From positions 1 to 51,403 of the forward strand of contig CAIYVZ010000180.1 of the NCBI GenBank assembly GCA_903929755.1: 51,403 bases of DNA, written 5' to 3'. The DNA comes from an uncultured Acidobacteriia bacterium (GTDB taxonomy: Bacteria; Acidobacteriota; Terriglobia; Bryobacterales; Bryobacteraceae). Within the stretch, counting starts at the first letter, position 1. The number at the start of each line of letters is the position of its first letter. Positions 28,297-37,578 of this stretch are shown piece after piece. The notes under the pieces are model-generated. The model saw only the letters and a program-made list of their open reading frames with translations, was not told the origin of the DNA and searched no databases. Made by a program: the position numbers and the translations under genes.

Positions 28297-30579
28297 TTAG
28301 ACGAGTTTTGCTTTGCTGAAGGGCAGTTCCCGCACTCTCTTGCCGGTGGCCGCGAACACTGCGTTCGCGAACGCCGGAATAAACGGAGGCACACCCGGTT
28401 CGCCGATACCGCCCGGCAGTTCATTGCTTTCCACAATATGAACGTCCGTCTGGATCGGCGCCTGATGCATTCGGGGCACCTGGTAGTTGTTGAAGTTGCC
28501 CTGCTGGACCCGGCCGTCTGCCAGGCTGATTTCACCCGTCAGCGCAATGCCCGCGCCCATCACGCCCGCACCTTCAAACTGCGAAACCGCGCGTTCCGGG
28601 TTAACCACCGTGCCCGCATCCACCACAAAGTAACTTTTCGGGATGCGGATCTTGCCGGTCTTATCCACTTCCACTTCAACCACGGACGCCACGTAGCTGG
28701 TAAAGCTCCGGGCCACCGCGACCCCCATGCCCCAGCCGTTGCCGGGTTTTCTCTTGCCCCAGCCTGACTTTTCGCCAGCGATCTCCAGCACCTTCCGCAG
28801 GCGCCGCGTATCGAACGGATACCGGTCCAGCGACTCGCCGTAATTCCAGTACTCACCCACGCCCTGCGCGCCCAGATTCAGAATCTTGCCCGCGCCCAGC
28901 AACTCCAGCTGGTACTCCAGCGAATCACGGCCTGCCGCGTGTGCCAGTTCGTCGGCAAAGCTCAGACCCGAGAACACGTGATAGATGTTGGCAACCGACC
29001 GCAGCCAGCCAATCCGGACATGCGCCTTCGCCGGGCCATTCTCCGCCCGTTGGTTCGGGATGTCAAACGGCATATCGTTCAGGCCCATGCCGTATTCCAC
29101 GTTGAAACCGTACATCGATTTCTCGTCGTTCATGGACGAAATCGACGGGAATACAGACCGGTGCAACCAGCCCGTAACCTTACCTTTTTCATCCAGTGAC
29201 GCCTTGTGATACATGCCGGCCACCGCGTGATAGTAGTCGAACTTAATGTCGTCTTCACGCGTCCAGACAACCTTTACCGGCTTGCCCACAGACTTCGAGA
29301 TCAACGCGGCTTCGGCCACATAGTCGGGCTTCGACTTGCGACCAAACCCGCCGCCCAGCAGGGTCACATGGCAGGTAACGTCTTCTACCTTAATGCCCAG
29401 TGCTTTGGCGACCGTGTCCTGCACAGCCTGCGGATTCTGCGTCGGAACCCAGGCTTCCACCTTACCGTTTTTGAAACTGGCGATGGCGACGGGCGGTTCC
29501 ATCGTTGCGTGCGCCAGCAGCGGAACGTAATAGCTGGCCTCCACAATCTTTCCCTTGCTGAAGGCCGCATCCACGTCACCCAGATTGCGGACAACCTTGC
29601 CCGGCTTCTTCGCCGTTTCCATCAATTCCGCCTTGTAGTGCTCGGAATCGTGGCTGGCGTTTTCGCCGTTATTCCACTCCACTTTCAGCTTCTTCCGGCC
29701 CTGGAACGCAGCCCAGGTGCTGTTCGCCACAACGGCCACGCCGCCCAGCGGCTGGAACGTGTAAGGCGGAGTGAACGGCGGAATCGAAACCGTCTGGCTG
29801 ACCCCCTTCACCTTCAGGGCTTCCTTGTCGTCGAACGTCTGGACTTTGCCGCCCATCACGGGAGGCCGCTCAATTGAAGCGTAGACCATGCCGTCCACCT
29901 TCGCGTCCATGCCGAACACGGCCTTGCCGCTCGTAATGTCCTTCAGGTCGGCAATCGCTTTGGGGTCCTTCGCGGTGTGGCCGATGTAGCGCCATTCACT
30001 GCGCGTCTTCAGCTTCAGTTCACTGGCTTTCGGTACCGGCAACTTGCCCGCCGCCACTGCCAGTTCGCCATATCCGAGCTTCTTGCCGGAGGGCGTGTGG
30101 GTCACCACGTGGTTCACCGCCGAGCATTCTGACTCGGGAACCTTCCACTGCGCTGCCGCCGCACGCGTCAGCATCAGCCGCGCCGCAGCGCCGGCTTCGC
30201 GGAACGGCACGAAGAACCCGCGGATCGACTTCGACCCGTCCGTGTTCTGATCGCCATACCGCGCATCGCCAATGGCCTGCTCAATCTTGACCTTGCTCCA
30301 GTCGGCTTCCATCTCATCCGCCGCCACCAGGGGCAGCGTGGTGCGGATGCCGGTGCCCATTTCGGAACGGTGGGTCACAATGTAGACCGTGCCGTCCGGT
30401 TCCAGACCCAGATACAAACTCGGTTTTAGTGCCGAAGCTGCGGCCTTTCCGAGATACTCGCTCGTATCCGCCCACAACGTTTCGGGCAGAAGGTCGGCCG
30501 CCAGCACGAAGGCCGAGGCTGAGAACACGCCGCCAATGAAGTTCCGCCGCGTGGCATTATCGATGTTTTGAATACTCAT
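28297..30579 (-). CDS. Molybdenum hydroxylase large subunit (xanthine dehydrogenase family, IorB-like)
   Basis: This protein of about 760 residues has a Tat-type signal (NATRRNFIGGVFSASAFVLA), so it is exported folded with its cofactor. It matches molybdopterin-binding subunits of the isoquinoline 1-oxidoreductase/aldehyde oxidoreductase group: SLYLGLEPDGTVYIVTHRSEMGTGI, the GGGFGRKSKPDY cofactor loop, and the C-terminal GGIGEPGVPPFIPAFANAVF carrying the expected catalytic Glu. It hydroxylates an aldehyde or N-heterocycle using water, and the substrate is unknown. The ATG at 30579 overlaps the stop of the 2Fe-2S subunit by one base (TAATG). No FAD subunit is present, so electrons probably go to a cytochrome. 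Confidence 0.93.
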   Translation of the reverse strand: MSIQNIDNATRRNFIGGVFSASAFVLAADLLPETLWADTSEYLGKAAASALKPSLYLGLEPDGTVYIVTHRSEMGTGIRTTLPLVAADEMEADWSKVKIEQAIGDARYGDQNTDGSKSIRGFFVPFREAGAAARLMLTRAAAAQWKVPESECSAVNHVVTHTPSGKKLGYGELAVAAGKLPVPKASELKLKTRSEWRYIGHTAKDPKAIADLKDITSGKAVFGMDAKVDGMVYASIERPPVMGGKVQTFDDKEALKVKGVSQTVSIPPFTPPYTFQPLGGVAVVANSTWAAFQGRKKLKVEWNNGENASHDSEHYKAELMETAKKPGKVVRNLGDVDAAFSKGKIVEASYYVPLLAHATMEPPVAIASFKNGKVEAWVPTQNPQAVQDTVAKALGIKVEDVTCHVTLLGGGFGRKSKPDYVAEAALISKSVGKPVKVVWTREDDIKFDYYHAVAGMYHKASLDEKGKVTGWLHRSVFPSISSMNDEKSMYGFNVEYGMGLNDMPFDIPNQRAENGPAKAHVRIGWLRSVANIYHVFSGLSFADELAHAAGRDSLEYQLELLGAGKILNLGAQGVGEYWNYGESLDRYPFDTRRLRKVLEIAGEKSGWGKRKPGNGWGMGVAVARSFTSYVASVVEVEVDKTGKIRIPKSYFVVDAGTVVNPERAVSQFEGAGVMGAGIALTGEISLADGRVQQGNFNNYQVPRMHQAPIQTDVHIVESNELPGGIGEPGVPPFIPAFANAVFAATGKRVRELPFSKAKLV

Positions 30580-31034
30580 TACGCCATCTCCTTCGCTGCA
30601 GTCTTGATGGCCGCGCGAATGCGCTGGTAGGTGCCGCAGCGGCAAATGTTGCCCGCCATGCCGTCTTCAATTTCTTTATCCGACGGCTTCTTGATCTTCT
30701 TCAGCAGCACCGCCGCCTGCATAATCTGCCCGGTCTGGCAGTAACCGCACTGCGGTACATTGCCCTGGGCCCAGGCCTTCTGCAGAGGATGGTCCCCGTT
30801 GGGACTCAGACCCTCAATGGTCACAATTGTTTTGCCTGCCACGTCCTTCATCGCCGTGGAGCATGACCGGATGGCATCGCCATTCCGATGCACAGTGCAG
30901 GCTCCGCACTGGCCCACACCGCAACCGAACTTCGTTCCCGTCATCGACAATTCATCGCGCAGGTACCACAACAGGGGCATATCCGGGTCGCCGTCAAAAG
31001 ACCGTTCGCGCCCGTTCACTTTGAGCTTGATCAC
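30579..31034 (-). CDS. Molybdenum hydroxylase small subunit, 2x[2Fe-2S]
   Basis: This is a 151-residue protein. The plant-type cluster has CGVGQCGAC plus a later Cys (RSC), and the C-terminal four-helix domain has CGYCQTG and CRCGTY, eight cysteines in all as expected for two [2Fe-2S] clusters. It passes electrons from the molybdenum subunit. The GTG at 31034 fits the conserved N-terminus (IKLKVNGRE) and has GAGG 9 nt upstream. The open frame continues to 31211, but that part is not typical. It has no signal of its own and is expected to ride out with the Tat-exported large subunit. Confidence 0.93.
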   Translation of the reverse strand: MIKLKVNGRERSFDGDPDMPLLWYLRDELSMTGTKFGCGVGQCGACTVHRNGDAIRSCSTAMKDVAGKTIVTIEGLSPNGDHPLQKAWAQGNVPQCGYCQTGQIMQAAVLLKKIKKPSDKEIEDGMAGNICRCGTYQRIRAAIKTAAKEMA

Positions 31035-31431
31035 AAGAGAATCCTCGCTACCTATTATGCAATTGTCGCTACCGCCCCACCGAACAACTCGTACTTCAAA
31101 CCGTGGATTGTCGCGCTGGCACTGTACAAGCCCGCCGGAGGCAGGGTGGCGGGCAGTGGTGAACTCATGTTTTCGCACGGGTACATTGCCCCTTTCGCTT
31201 GGCGTCAGCACTGCCGTAAGCCGGGAGTGTCCCAGGTCTGGAATTGAATTGCCCCGGCCATCGTGCGGATCTTTTCACTTTAAGGCTTGATCTGCGGAGA
31301 AAAGGGGAAGAGCTTCCCAGCAGTCAGGACAACGCTCCCATGTCTATTCATCCGATACGAGCCTATAAATCGAATTCGTAGCGATTTAGCCCCCGTCCCG
31401 TGCTGGCCACCGAAATGCTGATGGATTAGCT
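31035..31431. other. Intergenic region without a supported gene
   Basis: These 397 nt lie between divergently transcribed genes and should hold both promoters. I see a TATAAA at 31364-31369 without a good -35, and a small palindrome GGGAAGAGCTTCCC at about 31304-31317. A 37-codon minus-strand frame at 31055-31168 has no ribosome-binding site. Nothing else is recognised. Confidence 0.6.
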
Positions 31432-31986
31432 ATGAAAGCCATTCTGATTGCCGCGATGTGCGTCCTGCCCGCGATGGGGGAAGAGATACTACCCTGGACC
31501 CCGGCCCCGGAAAAGTCGTATTTTAAGCAGGCTTTCGGACGTGGATCGTTCGAACGTGCAGCAGCGTCCACTCTTTTCGCCGAAATCACAAACTCGCCAA
31601 AGGAATGGGGACGTACCTGGGACGGTGCGGGAAAACGGTATGCCTCGGCCTATGGCAAGCACCTGGTGAATACCAGCGTGCGGTACAGCGTCGCTACCCT
31701 TCGGCATGAGGACCTGCGGTATTTTCCCTCGGCCGGGAAGTCCGTCGGCGCCAGACTCCGTCACGCGCTGGTTAGCACGGTGGTGGCGCGAAATACTAAG
31801 ACGGGTTCTTCAGAGATGGCTTTGGGCCGTGTGTCCGGGGCGTTTGCAGGGGGCTTCGTTTCCCGAACCTGGATGCCGGACAGGTATCATACATTTTCCA
31901 GCGGAATGGCGTCCGGAGGGATCTCCCTGGGCATTGACGCGGGCGCAAATGTTCTGCGCGAGTTCTGGCACCGCGACCGCCACTAA
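31432..31986 (+). CDS. Exported conserved acidobacterial protein
   Basis: This 184-residue protein has a short signal peptide (MKAILIAAMCVLPAMG). The mature part has small-residue-rich motifs: FERAAASTLFAEITNSPKEWG, the RYSVATLRHEDLRYFPS block, a GAFAGGFVSRTW motif, and a C-terminal GGISLGIDAGANVLREFW. Similar proteins recur in Acidobacteria and may be envelope proteins, as the Gly/Ala pattern suggests membrane insertion. The function is unknown. Its stop overlaps that of the convergent phosphatase gene in CTAA. Confidence 0.8.
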   Translation: MKAILIAAMCVLPAMGEEILPWTPAPEKSYFKQAFGRGSFERAAASTLFAEITNSPKEWGRTWDGAGKRYASAYGKHLVNTSVRYSVATLRHEDLRYFPSAGKSVGARLRHALVSTVVARNTKTGSSEMALGRVSGAFAGGFVSRTWMPDRYHTFSSGMASGGISLGIDAGANVLREFWHRDRH

Positions 31987-32879
31987 CGCGGATCTGGCGG
32001 AGGCGCACCCGGGCGTCGGATGATCCCGGAATCCACGGTTACACCCATTCTGGATACCGCCTGATAATACAGGTCATCCCCCGAGATCTCGATCGTCAGG
32101 AACGAACGATCCTTATCGAAGCCAATCTCCGTCAGGCCCTTCTGGCGGAGGTCTCCGGCGCGCAGTTCACCGGCTGCCCCTTCAGTGAAGTAGTAAATTC
32201 CCTTTTGCGCCTTCACCCGTTCGTAGACATGTTCATGGCCGGCAAACACGGCCTGCACTCCGTACTTCACGAAGAGGGGTTCCAGCACCTTGCGTAATTC
32301 CGTTGCCGAGCCGTGGTATCCGCCGGAGGAGTAGAGAGGATGGTGGAAGTAGCAGATCTTCCAGGGTTCGGTGGCGGCGGCGAGTTCCTGTTCCAGCCAG
32401 GCCAACTGCTTCGGGTCCAGATAGTTGGTGTCCAGCGCAAAGAACCGCACATTGCCCTTTGTGAATGCGTAATACTGCTTGCCGTTCATGTTGAACCACT
32501 TGTAGAAACGTTCGTTGGTGTCGTCGTGGTTCCCCAGCGTCGCGTAGAAGAGCACTCCGGCATCGAGCAATAGCTTGTACGGAATCTCGAACTTCTTCAT
32601 CAGATCGGCCGCGCTCTTGCCGCCATAGATGTTGTCCCCCAGCGTCAGAACAAACGTGTACGGCAGCTTGCGGCGAAACTCCTCCATGCGGGCCGCGACC
32701 TGATATTGCTCCATTTCGCCTGTCCCCATATCCCCAATGGCGACAAAGCGCACGGAGTCAGGCTTTCCCGGCAGAGTTACAACAATGGGCCCGCCCGGAG
32801 CGGGCGCGGCCTGCCAGGCCAGAGTCCGGGGGGCCAGTAACAGGAGGAAAACGATTGCTGCACGTTGGATGAAATGCAT
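31983..32879 (-). CDS. Exported calcineurin-like metallophosphatase
   Basis: This protein of about 298 residues has a signal peptide (MHFIQRAAIVFLLLLAPRTLA). The two-metal phosphoesterase motifs appear in order: GDMG, LGDNIYGG, TLGNHDD, a HHPLYSSGGYHG block and the final GHEHVYER. The arrangement and small size resemble purple acid phosphatase-like enzymes that hydrolyse phosphomonoesters outside the cytoplasm. The ATG at 32879 has GGAGCAGG just upstream. The longer open frame overlaps the upstream gene and was rejected. It may form an operon with the two upstream genes (32902-34531). Confidence 0.92.
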   Translation of the reverse strand: MHFIQRAAIVFLLLLAPRTLAWQAAPAPGGPIVVTLPGKPDSVRFVAIGDMGTGEMEQYQVAARMEEFRRKLPYTFVLTLGDNIYGGKSAADLMKKFEIPYKLLLDAGVLFYATLGNHDDTNERFYKWFNMNGKQYYAFTKGNVRFFALDTNYLDPKQLAWLEQELAAATEPWKICYFHHPLYSSGGYHGSATELRKVLEPLFVKYGVQAVFAGHEHVYERVKAQKGIYYFTEGAAGELRAGDLRQKGLTEIGFDKDRSFLTIEISGDDLYYQAVSRMGVTVDSGIIRRPGAPPPDPR

Positions 32880-32901: not shown

Positions 32902-33459
32902 TTATGGCAGAGCGCCTGGAATGAAATCGATAACCAGCCGGGCTTCCTTGTCCTGGAGGACGAAGTCATGCCCGATGATGCGGTACGCGACCTCCGGGGG
33001 GAGTTGCGGAAGAAGCAGCAGCAACGTGGGGGGGACGGTTGTGACCGGAAGATCGTCGGGGTAGTCACAGTTCACCGTCAGGTGCCAGCCTTCTACAGAA
33101 TCCCCGTCCATCGCGGTCTTGCGAACGGCCGCGGCGCCTGCCCCCAGAAACACGGTACGAATGACCCGCCGGAACTCTGCGGCTGCCAGCGGCGTAAAAA
33201 TATCTCCCTGGCGGGCAGTGGCACGCGCCTCGCGAATCCGGCCGACCAGGGCTTTGCGCGTATCCACAATCTGCTTGCGCTGTCTCTTTGGACGCAGACT
33301 CGGCATCGTTTGATGCAGCTTCACATAAGCCGCGATCTTCTCACTGAAATCGCCATACGGTTCCGAACTGACCGGTACCGTCTGCGACCTGACAACGCCT
33401 GTGAGCAGCAGGCTGCCCATCGCCAGTGTGACCAAACTTCTAACCGGTCTCCGCAGCAT
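32902..33459 (-). CDS. Exported conserved protein of unknown function
   Basis: This 185-residue protein has an N-terminal signal (MLRRPVRSLVTLAMGSLLLTGVVRSQ), a basic helical region (SLRPKRQRKQIVDTRKALVGRIREARATARQGDIF), and a C-terminal part with PPTLLLLLPQLPPEVAYRIIGHDFVLQD. The PPEVAYR..G..LVL.D text recurs in exported proteins of Acidobacteria as I recall, but no function is known to me. It overlaps the PLD gene upstream by 20 nt and precedes the phosphatase by 22 nt, so the three are probably co-transcribed. Confidence 0.8.
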   Translation of the reverse strand: MLRRPVRSLVTLAMGSLLLTGVVRSQTVPVSSEPYGDFSEKIAAYVKLHQTMPSLRPKRQRKQIVDTRKALVGRIREARATARQGDIFTPLAAAEFRRVIRTVFLGAGAAAVRKTAMDGDSVEGWHLTVNCDYPDDLPVTTVPPTLLLLLPQLPPEVAYRIIGHDFVLQDKEARLVIDFIPGALP

Positions 33460-34531
33460 GCGCCATCTCCTTCACCACCTCTTTGACCGCCCGCTTCACG
33501 GCATTTTTCACGGTCGCCTTCACCTCGCCGTTCTCCGCGGCCTCTTTGCCCGCCCGCTTCACGGCCTGGCGAATGGCTTTCTTGAGCGTGACTCGCAGGG
33601 GAGGCATCTGTTTCACCAGCGCCTTCGTGGCGGCGGTTGCAAGTCGGTCAGGTGCGCCTGTCTCTGCCACAACCGCATCCTTCGCTTCCTCGAAACCGGT
33701 TGCCAGCCAGTCTTCTGCAAAGACTGCGGACAGGGTCTGGACCGCTTTCGCGTCCCGAATCACGATACCAATCTCCCGCCGGCGATCCAGTTCGGCGGGC
33801 CGCAGACTCTGACTGCCAACGAACGCCACATTCGCATCCCGGATGATTGTCCGCGTGTGCAACCGCATCACCGTGAGCCGAGCGACCGCCAGATTGGAAC
33901 TATGCGCGGCGATAGTGCCGATGATTCGGATTTCGACGCCCTGCTTTGCCCGGGCTTCCAGCAGGCACATAATCTCCCGGTCATTGATCTTCGGATCGTA
34001 GATCCAGAGCGTTTTCTTTGCCTTGGCGATGAATGCCGAAAGCTGCTTCCGGGCATTCTCAGGACTGACCACAAGAGCATTGAGGCCCGCCGCATAGGGC
34101 TGGCGGTTCAGGTCGGCTTCAAATAGCTTCTCCGCCTCCTGTACCGTCGCCGGGTGGCGAGTTACAACCCCGAAGCCACGACTATGGTCGATATCCAGGT
34201 GGACGTAATTGAACGAAAGCAGGAACAACGTCTTGCGATCAATCAGCATCATTTTGCCGTGGTAGCGGATCAGGTCATCCGCCGTTCGGGCAACCGTGAT
34301 GCCGGCGGCCAAAAGGCGAGTTTCCAGGCTACGCAGCTTCGCTTCACCACCGCGGTTGGTCTGTGCCACCAGAGCCCGTACCGTAACGCCCCGTGAGGCA
34401 GCCGCAGTGAGTGCGGCCTCCAGTTCTTTCCAGTCCATGCGAAAGATCAAGATGTCGATGCACTTCTTCGCACTCTTGATTCCGGCAAGGATTGGCGCAA
34501 TGCCATCGTTCGGTTGAACCAATAACTTCAT
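33440..34531 (-). CDS. Phospholipase D-fold protein with one altered HKD motif
   Basis: This 363-residue protein is built like cardiolipin synthases and PLD-type hydrolases, with two catalytic halves. Motif 1 is intact: H91-G-K93 with D98 (YHGKMMLIDRKT). Motif 2 reads H225-T-R227 with D232 (LHTRTIIRDANVAFVGSQSLR), where Arg replaces the usual Lys. It has no signal peptide or transmembrane helices, unlike most cardiolipin synthases. The last 60 residues are Lys/Ala-rich (VKRAGKEAAENGEVKATVKNAVKRAVKEVVKEM) and would form a positively charged amphipathic helix, perhaps for membrane or nucleic-acid binding. The substrate could be phospholipid or DNA. Confidence 0.85.
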   Translation of the reverse strand: MKLLVQPNDGIAPILAGIKSAKKCIDILIFRMDWKELEAALTAAASRGVTVRALVAQTNRGGEAKLRSLETRLLAAGITVARTADDLIRYHGKMMLIDRKTLFLLSFNYVHLDIDHSRGFGVVTRHPATVQEAEKLFEADLNRQPYAAGLNALVVSPENARKQLSAFIAKAKKTLWIYDPKINDREIMCLLEARAKQGVEIRIIGTIAAHSSNLAVARLTVMRLHTRTIIRDANVAFVGSQSLRPAELDRRREIGIVIRDAKAVQTLSAVFAEDWLATGFEEAKDAVVAETGAPDRLATAATKALVKQMPPLRVTLKKAIRQAVKRAGKEAAENGEVKATVKNAVKRAVKEVVKEMAHAAETG

Positions 34532-34741: not shown

Positions 34742-35728
34742 ATGACGCCAACACATAACTTCGCATTCTGTGTCGCCACCTCCATCTCGTTCTCCTGCCT
34801 GCTGACCGCTGCCGAACTCCCGAAGCACATTGCCCACGAAGCAATGTGGCAGGACCGGGGCAACATCTCAGCCCTGAATCTGACTTATGGTCAGGGCGGC
34901 GAGCAGCACCAGCCCTCTGGACCGTTCACCTTTGTAAAGGAAGACTCGAGCGGTACTTCACCGAAGTTTGAAATTGTCGATCAGCAGGGTACCCGCTGGA
35001 AAGCGAAGGTGGGTGAAGAGGCCCGTGCCGAAACCGCCGCCGCTCACTTGTTATGGGCCGCTGGTTACTTCACCGATGAAGACTATTACGTGGCCGAACT
35101 CACGGTAGCGAACCTGCCGAAGCTGGCGCGGGGAAATCAAATGGTGACGGCCGGCGGCGTGGTCCACGGAGTCCGGCTGGAACGCCATATGTCAGGGCAG
35201 GAAAAAGGCGGCACATGGACCTGGGCCAGGAATCCGTTGCAAGGGACCAAGGAATTCGCGGGCCTGCGGGTGATGATGGCGCTGATGAATAACTGGGACC
35301 TGAAAACGATTAACAACGTCATCTACAAAACCGGCAAAGAAAAAGGCCTGACCTATGCGGTCAGCGATCTGGGCGCGACGTTTGGCAAAACCGGCAATCC
35401 TTTGGTGCGCTCCAAGAGTAACCTGAAGGACTACCAGTCGACGAAGTTCATACAGCATGTACGCCAGGAGGATGTGGATTTCCACCTCAACAGCCGGCCC
35501 TTCTTTCTTACCGTTTTCGATCTGCCGAACTACATCACCCGGACCCGTATGCAGGGTGTCGTCAAGCATGTTTCCCGGGCCCACGCGGGATGGCTCGGGG
35601 GCTTACTGGGCGGCCTTTCGCACGAACAGATCCGGGACTGTTTCCGGTCCGCCGGTTACTCGGATGTGGAAGTGGAAGGCTTCGCGGTTGCGGTGGAAGG
35701 TCGTATCGCGGAATTGACCAAACTCTAA
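34742..35728 (+). CDS. Exported protein with atypical kinase-like motifs
   Basis: This 328-residue protein has an N-terminal hydrophobic segment (about residues 7-24) that looks like a signal peptide. No named family is recognised with certainty. Visible motifs fit an atypical protein/lipid-kinase fold: K87/K89 in RWKAKVG, E97 in RAETAAAHLLWAAGY, a catalytic-loop-like NNWD186-LK188-TINN192, and a VSD209-LG pair resembling DFG. The order and spacing are as expected for ATP-binding Lys, helix-C Glu, catalytic Asp, Asn and metal Asp. Function is inference only; alternatives are an inactive pseudokinase or unrelated protein. The gene ends in a CTAA overlap with the ABC exporter gene. Confidence 0.7.
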   Translation: MTPTHNFAFCVATSISFSCLLTAAELPKHIAHEAMWQDRGNISALNLTYGQGGEQHQPSGPFTFVKEDSSGTSPKFEIVDQQGTRWKAKVGEEARAETAAAHLLWAAGYFTDEDYYVAELTVANLPKLARGNQMVTAGGVVHGVRLERHMSGQEKGGTWTWARNPLQGTKEFAGLRVMMALMNNWDLKTINNVIYKTGKEKGLTYAVSDLGATFGKTGNPLVRSKSNLKDYQSTKFIQHVRQEDVDFHLNSRPFFLTVFDLPNYITRTRMQGVVKHVSRAHAGWLGGLLGGLSHEQIRDCFRSAGYSDVEVEGFAVAVEGRIAELTKL

Positions 35729-37578
35729 AAGGCAGCGGGAGTCCCGGGGGACGGCAGCACCTCGGCGGGCGTGCTCGCCTGCAGGGCAACAAGCTCCGCG
35801 TACAGGCCACCGGCGGCCAGAAGTTCCTCATGCGTACCATGTTCGGCGATGCCGTTATCCTGCACCACAAAGATGACATCGGCCCTCTGGATGGTAGCAA
35901 GATGATGGGCAATCACCACACATGTCTTGCCCTGCATCAGGCGGCCCAGTGCCTCAAAAACGGCATCTTCCGAGGCGGCGTCCAGGCCCGATGTCGGCTC
36001 ATCCAGAATCAGGATTGGCGTATTGCGAATAATCGCGCGGGCAATCGCAATGCGCTGGCGTTGCCCACCCGACAGGGTGACGCCCCGTTCACCGACCATG
36101 GTGTCGTAGCCATCGGGCATCCTCTCAATGAACTCATGCGCGTTCGCCAGTTTGGCGGCACCAATGATCTCATCACGCCCGGCTTCGGGCTTGCCATAGG
36201 CAATGTTCTGCCAGATCGGAACGTGGAACAACACCGTATCCTGCAGGACAAAGCTCATCTGCTCTCGCAGGGACTGCAGCGTATAGCTCCGAACATCGTG
36301 ACCATCCACTTTCACGGTGCCCGTCAGGACCTCGTAAAAACGTGGAATCAAACCGATGATTGTTGACTTTCCCGCTCCGCTTGGTCCTACGAACGCGGCC
36401 ACCTGGCCCGGTTCCAGCCGAAAGCTGACGTCCTTCAGGATCAGATTCTCCGGCTGATACCCAAAGTTGACGTGGTCAAACTCTATCTCCCCACGGAGGA
36501 CCGGCGCAATTGCCGCGCGGGGCATATCACGAACCCGGCTGACTTCCCCGAGGACTTCCTGGATGCGCTCATAGCTAATCGCCGCTTTCGCCACGGTGTC
36601 GCCCATCTTTGACAGTTCCCGCATCGGCTTGTACATCTTTCCCAGATAGGCCAGGAAGATGATCAGGTCACCCGTAGTGATGTCGCCGGCCATGGCAAGA
36701 CGCGCGCCGTAGCCCAGCACCAGACACGTTCCAACCGCCGCCAAAACCTCAACGGTGGGTGACAGCATGGCCTTGATGGAACGCGCCCGCAGTGCCGTCT
36801 CCACATTATCCAGACTCTGTTCTTCGAAGCGCTTCTGTTCATAGTCCTCGCGCGCGAAAGCCTTCACCACGCGAATCGACGTGAGGACTTCCTGGACAAT
36901 GTCGACCAGTTCGCCTTCCTTCTGCCGGAGAGCACGTGAGGCCTTCTTGATCTTTCGGGTAAAGAAGAACACCACCAGAAACAGCGCGGGGGAGATGGAG
37001 AGCGCGATCAGGGCGAAGCGCCAGTTGTAATAGAACATCACCGCGACCATGCCGGCCAGCGTAAGAGCGTTCACCAGCATGCCCAGCAGTGCGGAAGTGA
37101 TGAAGTCCTGTACGGCCTCAATGTCGCTGGTGACGCGGGTGATCAGGTCGCCGGTGCGTCGCTCGTCGTGTTCGGCTAACGAGAGCTGATGAATGTGGTG
37201 GTAGAGTGCACGCCGAAGGTCGTGCATCACCCACTGACCAACGCTGGTGGTCAGACGCTTCTCGCAGTAAGAACTGACGGCACCCACAATCGCGATCAGG
37301 GCAACCGCACCAACTGCGAAATTCAGGACCGAGAATTTATCGTCACCGGCAGCGCTTTCCACAAACCGGTTCAGCCAATCGGGAAGCGGTTTCGACTGCA
37401 GCAGGTTATCAACGATTACCTTGAGTGGCCAGGGGTCGAGGAGGTCAGCAACCGTTTCGCCCAGGACAGCGAGCAGCGCCAGACTCAGCAGTCTCCGGTG
37501 GGGTTTCAGCAGGCTGGCAAACTGTTGCCGGGTTGTTCCGGATAATGCAGCAGCGGTCGCGTCGGGTTGTTTGGACAC
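35725..37578 (-). CDS. ABC exporter, MsbA-like (fused membrane and ATPase domains)
   Basis: This 617-residue half-transporter works as a dimer. Residues 25-330 form six transmembrane helices (type 1 exporter, with RRTGDLITRVTSDIEAVQDF early in the domain). The ATPase domain has Walker A GPSGAGKST, signature LSGGQRQRIAIARA, Walker B ILILDEPTSGLD and switch His in VIAHHLATI. It resembles lipid A/lipid flippases and multidrug exporters, and the cargo is not predictable. The start is GTG, with GAGG 8 nt upstream. It is convergent with the kinase-like gene. Confidence 0.93.
   Translation of the reverse strand: MSKQPDATAAALSGTTRQQFASLLKPHRRLLSLALLAVLGETVADLLDPWPLKVIVDNLLQSKPLPDWLNRFVESAAGDDKFSVLNFAVGAVALIAIVGAVSSYCEKRLTTSVGQWVMHDLRRALYHHIHQLSLAEHDERRTGDLITRVTSDIEAVQDFITSALLGMLVNALTLAGMVAVMFYYNWRFALIALSISPALFLVVFFFTRKIKKASRALRQKEGELVDIVQEVLTSIRVVKAFAREDYEQKRFEEQSLDNVETALRARSIKAMLSPTVEVLAAVGTCLVLGYGARLAMAGDITTGDLIIFLAYLGKMYKPMRELSKMGDTVAKAAISYERIQEVLGEVSRVRDMPRAAIAPVLRGEIEFDHVNFGYQPENLILKDVSFRLEPGQVAAFVGPSGAGKSTIIGLIPRFYEVLTGTVKVDGHDVRSYTLQSLREQMSFVLQDTVLFHVPIWQNIAYGKPEAGRDEIIGAAKLANAHEFIERMPDGYDTMVGERGVTLSGGQRQRIAIARAIIRNTPILILDEPTSGLDAASEDAVFEALGRLMQGKTCVVIAHHLATIQRADVIFVVQDNGIAEHGTHEELLAAGGLYAELVALQASTPAEVLPSPGTPAAF

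Follow-up and report, generated by a model that had tools for sequence, protein, structure and literature searches.

An atypical-kinase-like protein, probably exported, of an apparently undescribed family in Acidobacteriota

The window analyzed here is the whole stretch of 51,403 nucleotides of contig CAIYVZ010000180.1, from an uncultured bacterium of the Bryobacteraceae. On its forward strand, at 34742-35728, lies an open reading frame (ORF) with an ATG start and no internal stops, encoding 328 amino acids (aa). An earlier note, made from the letters alone, had read its product as a candidate exported atypical kinase of an undescribed family. This reading is supported by the invariance of K89, E97, D186 and D209 among homologues, by a kinase-like predicted fold, by the signal-like N-termini of the family and by linkage to neighboring genes. 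A gene on the opposite strand was rejected, because stops interrupt that strand when it is read in the corresponding frame. The gene is present as a single copy in its own genome, and its features are:

34742..35728, + strand: atypical-kinase-like protein, probably exported, 328 aa, with a G71-x3-K75 loop, K89, E97, D186/K188/N191 and D209-L-G
34742..34813, + strand: signal-like N-terminal segment, about residues 1-24, without a positive n-region in this member; heuristic call only
35006..35008, + strand: codon of K89, candidate ATP-binding lysine, in strand 85-90
35297..35314, + strand: predicted catalytic loop, D186-L-K-T-I-N191
35366..35374, + strand: D209-L-G211, candidate metal-binding motif

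The window protein gave nothing below E 0.15 in Pfam (the only match, PF01413, was at E 0.15) and no match to NCBIfam models or PDB sequences. Searches of the PDB with family profiles A2 and A3 returned nothing useful, A2 giving three chance-level rows. To judge by searches with the window protein and 55 family members, neither Pfam nor NCBIfam has a model for the family, and members would therefore probably carry the annotation hypothetical. Relatives were sought in 396 Acidobacteriota genomes, a sample of the window's own phylum only. The single protein found matches in 55 of them, about one in seven (46 at E <=1e-10), with several genomes having 2-5 matches. Three classes were distinguished: class A, which includes the window protein; class B, with frames of about 375-435 aa and Q-H at positions D-3/D-2; and class C, with frames of about 550-620 aa and one of 901. 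The 55-member profile A2 (49 class A and 6 class B rows; L001, the Omp85 fusion L010, L015, L035, L036, L041, the second L019 fragment and the class C proteins are omitted) matched 92 of the 396 genomes, many of the extra listed matches lying in 500-800-codon frames like those of class C. A short-pattern scan of an 84,980-species collection found 11 loci, each with Acidobacteria, Bryobacterales or Bryobacteraceae in its title; the scan requires exact short peptides, so this result does not establish absence elsewhere. No useful match was found in viral contigs searched with the window protein and the A2 profile, or in plasmids searched with the window protein and one class C protein.

The earlier note had named K87, K89, E97, D186-L-K-T-I-N191-N192 and D209-L-G as the kinase-like residues, all of which are present, and had staked its reading on conservation of K87/K89, D186, N192 and D209. 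K89, E97, D186, D209 and G211 are conserved in 55/55 homologues; K188 is found in 49, N191 in 50, N192 in 45 and K87 in 24, so that two of the named residues, K87 and N192, vary. The candidate for the ATP-binding lysine is thus K89 instead of K87, and N191, which follows D186 by five residues, suits the catalytic-loop Asn better than N192. Within class A alone, K89, E97, D186 and D209 are each found in 49/49 rows, a count without L001 (the window protein itself), L036 (the L002 locus again), two fragments, classes B and C, L035 and L041 (truncated at the edge of a contig), and L018 and L052 (frames reaching the locus end). Eleven positions are invariant over the 55 rows (G50, K89, E93, E97, G108, W159, L175, D186, D209, G211 and Q296). 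Five of these fall among the 51 K/D/E residues of the window protein, and the chance that four blindly named K/D/E residues would all be invariant is 2e-5. G71 (49/55) and K75 (50/55) form a G-x3-K loop like that of the HipA_C reference row (SLAGVQLK), and the spacing from D186 to D209 is 23 residues both here and in the HipA_C set. To judge by sequence, the family has the putative Lys, helix-C Glu, catalytic Asp, Asn and metal Asp of a kinase-like fold.

Classes B and C extend this pattern. HxDxKxxN...DFG is the signature of eukaryotic-type Ser/Thr kinases (ePKs). Class A retains D-x-K-x-x-N, and the class B loop is HxDxKxx(N/Q) with DLG in 6/6; class C has HxDx(K/R)xxN...DFG in 5/5, with Lys in four. 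Profile comparison relates class C to classes A and B with a probability of 99.5% (E 1.2e-22); it brings the active-site motifs into register, and none of 60 shuffles came near. Kinase genes are tandemly duplicated within the cluster described below at L031:1398-3512 and L032:6884-8924.

Comparison of the predicted structure of the window protein with known folds, proposed in the earlier note as a check, gave kinases as the best matches. The model has the look of a two-lobed kinase fold of the HipA/PI3K/Fam20 branch, and a kinase-type fold is, in our judgment, very probable. If an unrelated exported protein showed these motifs in this order by chance, that would suit the lack of any matching family model; set against the invariance of the named residues and the kinase fold matches, the idea is hardly credible. 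Viral structure matches to the window model were also seen. The five best (E 4e-5 to 1.5e-4, probability 1.00) are to parts of phage proteins 1085-1479 aa long, whose annotation is portal protein, ADP-ribosyltransferase or uncharacterized; on the model, these parts are possible hidden kinase-like domains.

The family differs in several respects from the known kinase families to which it was compared. HipA gave no match to the window protein up to E 10; two of the 55 members matched HipA_C (best E 0.048, below the Pfam cut-off), and the class C protein L054 scored 19 bits against HipA_2 (cut-off 27). Profile alignment to 19 Acidobacteriota HipA_C proteins places K89, E97, D186, N191 and D209 on K186, E199, D308, N313 and D331, all invariant there; alignment to HipA_2 places K89, E97, D186 and D209 on conserved K, E, D and D, with the Asn off by one. 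At D+2, 49/55 family members have an ePK-like Lys in place of the His found in all 19 HipA_C rows. The family also differs from HipA, HipT and CtkA (PF07804, PF20613) in having no above-cut-off match, a signal-like N-terminus and an envelope-type gene cluster. The 20 families that any of the 55 members matched at E 1 do not include Fam20C, CotH or PI3/PI4 kinase (PF00454), and membership in Fam20 or CotH was rejected for want of a match to either model. Fam20C and Fam20A show no sequence match (PDB included); only 8 residues separate K89 from E97 here, and the mature domain has a single Cys (C300) and thus no internal disulfide, unlike those proteins. D209 and G211 are invariant, a difference from CotH. 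PI4K-IIalpha and PI3K likewise show no sequence match in Pfam or the PDB. The ePKs share the class B and C loops but are poor fold matches (3pg1, template modelling (TM) score 0.20).

Two other kinase-like frames were noted in the phylum. At L110:1312-3150 (-), one frame with a start that is signal-like by eye encodes an N-terminal calcineurin-like phosphatase (PF00149, 5.2e-12) and, at the other end of the same protein, a stretch like the HipA_2 kinases (22.3 bits, cut-off 27). At L109:1345-2241 (-), a frame with a start that is signal-like by eye scores 25.5 bits to PI3_PI4_kinase (cut-off 27.1) and 24.8 to HipA_2 (cut-off 27), and its sequence perhaps marks a second exported kinase-like group.

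The signal-like N-terminus claimed for the window protein is present (mean hydropathy 1.90 over 12 residues) but poor, with no Lys or Arg ahead of it. By a heuristic, 49 of 53 homologue rows have a hydrophobic segment (mean >=1.6 over 12 residues) ahead of the domain; in three of the remaining rows the segment lies upstream of the 60 residues examined, and the fourth is truncated at a contig end. At L010:1210-3672 (+) (= L070:2230-4692) a single 821-codon frame joins the kinase domain to an Omp85 barrel behind it (PF01103, 29.3 bits with a cut-off of 24, E 7.9e-7). This single fusion argues for a periplasmic or outward-facing position of the family's kinase domains. Apart from it, no Omp85 was recognized as a regular cluster member on reading the ORFs in the gaps of several loci, although no family scan of those ORFs was made.

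The neighbors of the kinase gene, all on the opposite strand, are:

31983..32879, - strand: metallophosphatase (PF00149, purple-acid-phosphatase-like), signal-like start by eye
32902..33459, - strand: small protein, 185 aa, a conserved cluster member without a Pfam family, start signal-like by eye; its gene shares 20 bases with the PLD gene
33440..34531, - strand: phospholipase D (PLD)-like protein (PF13091), divergent neighbor; same subfamily linked to the kinase in other genomes
35725..37578, - strand: ATP-binding cassette (ABC) exporter half-transporter (PF00664+PF00005), convergent neighbor

Pfam bears out the PLD-like protein (PLDc_2, 1.6e-32) and the ABC_membrane/ABC_tran exporter of the earlier note. 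The metallophosphatase (PF00149, 1.4e-19), third gene upstream of the kinase, was absent from it; this ORF is listed to 33068, and the inner Met start given above follows the homologue start in L035. The phosphatase is closest to purple acid/tartrate-resistant acid phosphatases (E 5e-15). A model of the small protein (mean predicted local distance difference test score (pLDDT) 78.4) is nearest the C-terminal domain of CigR (probability 1.00, TM 0.67 by target length, E only 0.018); nine members gave no Pfam match better than E 0.049.

The kinase gene is separated by 210 bases from the divergent PLD gene, and its stop overlaps the ABC gene. A HipBA toxin-antitoxin system was rejected, as there is no room for a HipB-like partner and no HipA match; the neighbors are instead PLD, small protein, metallophosphatase and ABC genes. 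A cytoplasmic HipA-like kinase of stress or toxin-antitoxin type, whose hydrophobic N-terminus is no signal, would fit the uncharged N-terminus of the window member and the weak profile likeness to HipA. The hydrophobic segment in 49/53 homologues, the relative fused to an outer-membrane barrel, the lack of space for HipB between the kinase and its two neighbors, and two linked genes with N-termini that are signal-like by eye make this explanation very improbable.

The gene cluster recurs in other genomes. Among 50 non-window loci, PLD is found within 6 kb of the kinase in 22, ABC in 21, the phosphatase in 18, the small protein in 14 and all four in 9, as counted with hand-set score thresholds, with L062 omitted (same locus as L036) and with L035 and L041 (one genome, perhaps one locus) taken separately. 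At L067 and L069 the kinase, PLD, small protein and phosphatase genes lie head to tail on one strand. The PLD subfamily is present in 38 of the 396 genomes (E <=1e-30), 35 of them, as compared by eye, among the 55 kinase genomes; the other three are G062, G269 and G278. An overlap of at least 35 would arise by independent drawing with a chance of 2e-32, kinship ignored. A listed kinase is found no more than 5 kb away for 25 of 43 PLD hits, including the class B kinases of G125 and G221, a count that used 49 kinase rows of the profile search, other listed rows being on contigs apart from the unmatched PLD hits. On a gene tree with midpoint root and hand-set labels, the cluster label is grouped (9 changes against a shuffled mean of 18.5; 0/500 shuffles as low) and falls on 21 of 28 rows of the clade holding the window; eight 'not determined' rows were counted as without, yet PLD is near two (L049, L050), and the class B row L004_70 was labelled 'none', not 'B'.

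Several other features of these loci were observed. In the window PLD protein, as read from its translation, the first motif is HGK...D and the second HTR, which gives the second HKD site a degenerate look. At L067:5685-6878 and L037:6651-7844 (+), a frame of 398 codons with a signal and of unrecognized family lies between the ABC exporter and the kinase. Beside the window ABC gene are a 3-keto-disaccharide hydrolase (PF06439, 37622-38440, -) and ThuA (PF06283, 38520-39428, +), and at 28297-31211 (-) are two frames resembling, by eye, the large subunit of a molybdenum hydroxylase and its iron-sulfur subunit.

A number of points weigh against an exported kinase. Outside the cytoplasm ATP is not usually abundant, and the N-terminus of the window member lacks positive charge where many homologues carry Lys or Arg. 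The best model has a mean pLDDT of 72.3 and the other four 50.5-63.2; values of about 60 at residues 181-210 and 38 at 211-220 mean that the model does not establish active-site geometry. No PDB structure match by Foldseek reaches E 0.001, and the list also holds ordinary protein kinases at TM about 0.2. Profile likeness to HipA is weak on its own, with a probability of 6% (E 0.006) against the 19 HipA_C proteins and 27% (E 6.6e-4) against HipA_2. Each of these scores lies above 60/60 column-shuffled decoys, and one unrelated profile, of the small protein, was reached by 22/60, a control that is modest because shuffling removes secondary-structure order and a single unrelated real profile was used. 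Twenty of the 55 kinase genomes lack the PLD subfamily, and 21 of the 50 loci have none of the cluster genes, in a set of mostly better-scoring hits (40 regions chosen mostly so) with some short contigs.

On balance, we consider it probable that the window protein is an extracytoplasmic phosphotransferase of an unnamed family, with a fold of HipA/CtkA/Fam20/PI4K type. Once exported, it would bind ATP or another donor between its lobes, with K89 and E97 holding the phosphates, D209 and N191 the metal, and D186 acting as base, and would phosphorylate some envelope component. This substrate may be made or moved by the PLD protein and ABC exporter, and the co-encoded purple-acid-phosphatase-like enzyme would supply the opposing activity. 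A special case is a lipid kinase proper, acting not on a protein but on a lipid that the PLD protein and exporter would make and move. CtkA and Fam20C, which are protein kinases, score as high as or above lipid kinases in the fold comparison; the ABC protein resembles multidrug exporters at least as closely, and the PLD protein weakly matches only one phospholipase and two nucleases. A lipid substrate is thus possible but doubtful. The fold might also serve a different transfer (AMP or another nucleotidyl group, polyglutamylation) or belong to a nucleotide-binding pseudokinase that regulates its neighbors. SelO and SidJ are precedents, being kinase-fold enzymes with other chemistry. The reference list of PMC7948968 names a paper titled on a polyglutamylating bacterial pseudokinase, and the N191 position is Gln in 5/55 members, including 3/6 of class B. 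We regard such chemistry as unlikely, as all 55/55 members keep the Lys, the Glu and the two Asp that a true kinase should have, and the adjacent phosphatase suits phosphotransfer.

To our knowledge, few bacterial kinases act outside the cytoplasm, and no description of an exported Acidobacteriota kinase family was found by title or abstract in the open-licence PMC literature. The family, its hybrid motif set, the cluster and the Omp85 fusion appear undescribed in the libraries and literature searched, while the fold itself is known. A bioinformatic survey reported 13 novel kinase families in Legionella (PMC9758233), and to that extent the discovery of one more divergent kinase family in bacteria is no novel kind of finding by itself. 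More tentatively, and with the odds against it, Acidobacteriota may possess a dedicated system of reversible extracytoplasmic phosphorylation, in which exported kinase and phosphatase act on the same envelope substrate, supplied by the PLD enzyme and ABC exporter, with an Omp85-fused kinase in one lineage; such a system would need a phosphate donor in the envelope as well. On this reading, the ePK-like loop (HxDxKxxN...DFG, 4/5 of class C) on a HipA/Fam20-like fold would link two kinase branches. The occurrence of the family in 55/396 genomes, with a probably exported phosphatase at 18/50 loci, makes extracytoplasmic reversible phosphorylation directly testable in these abundant soil bacteria.
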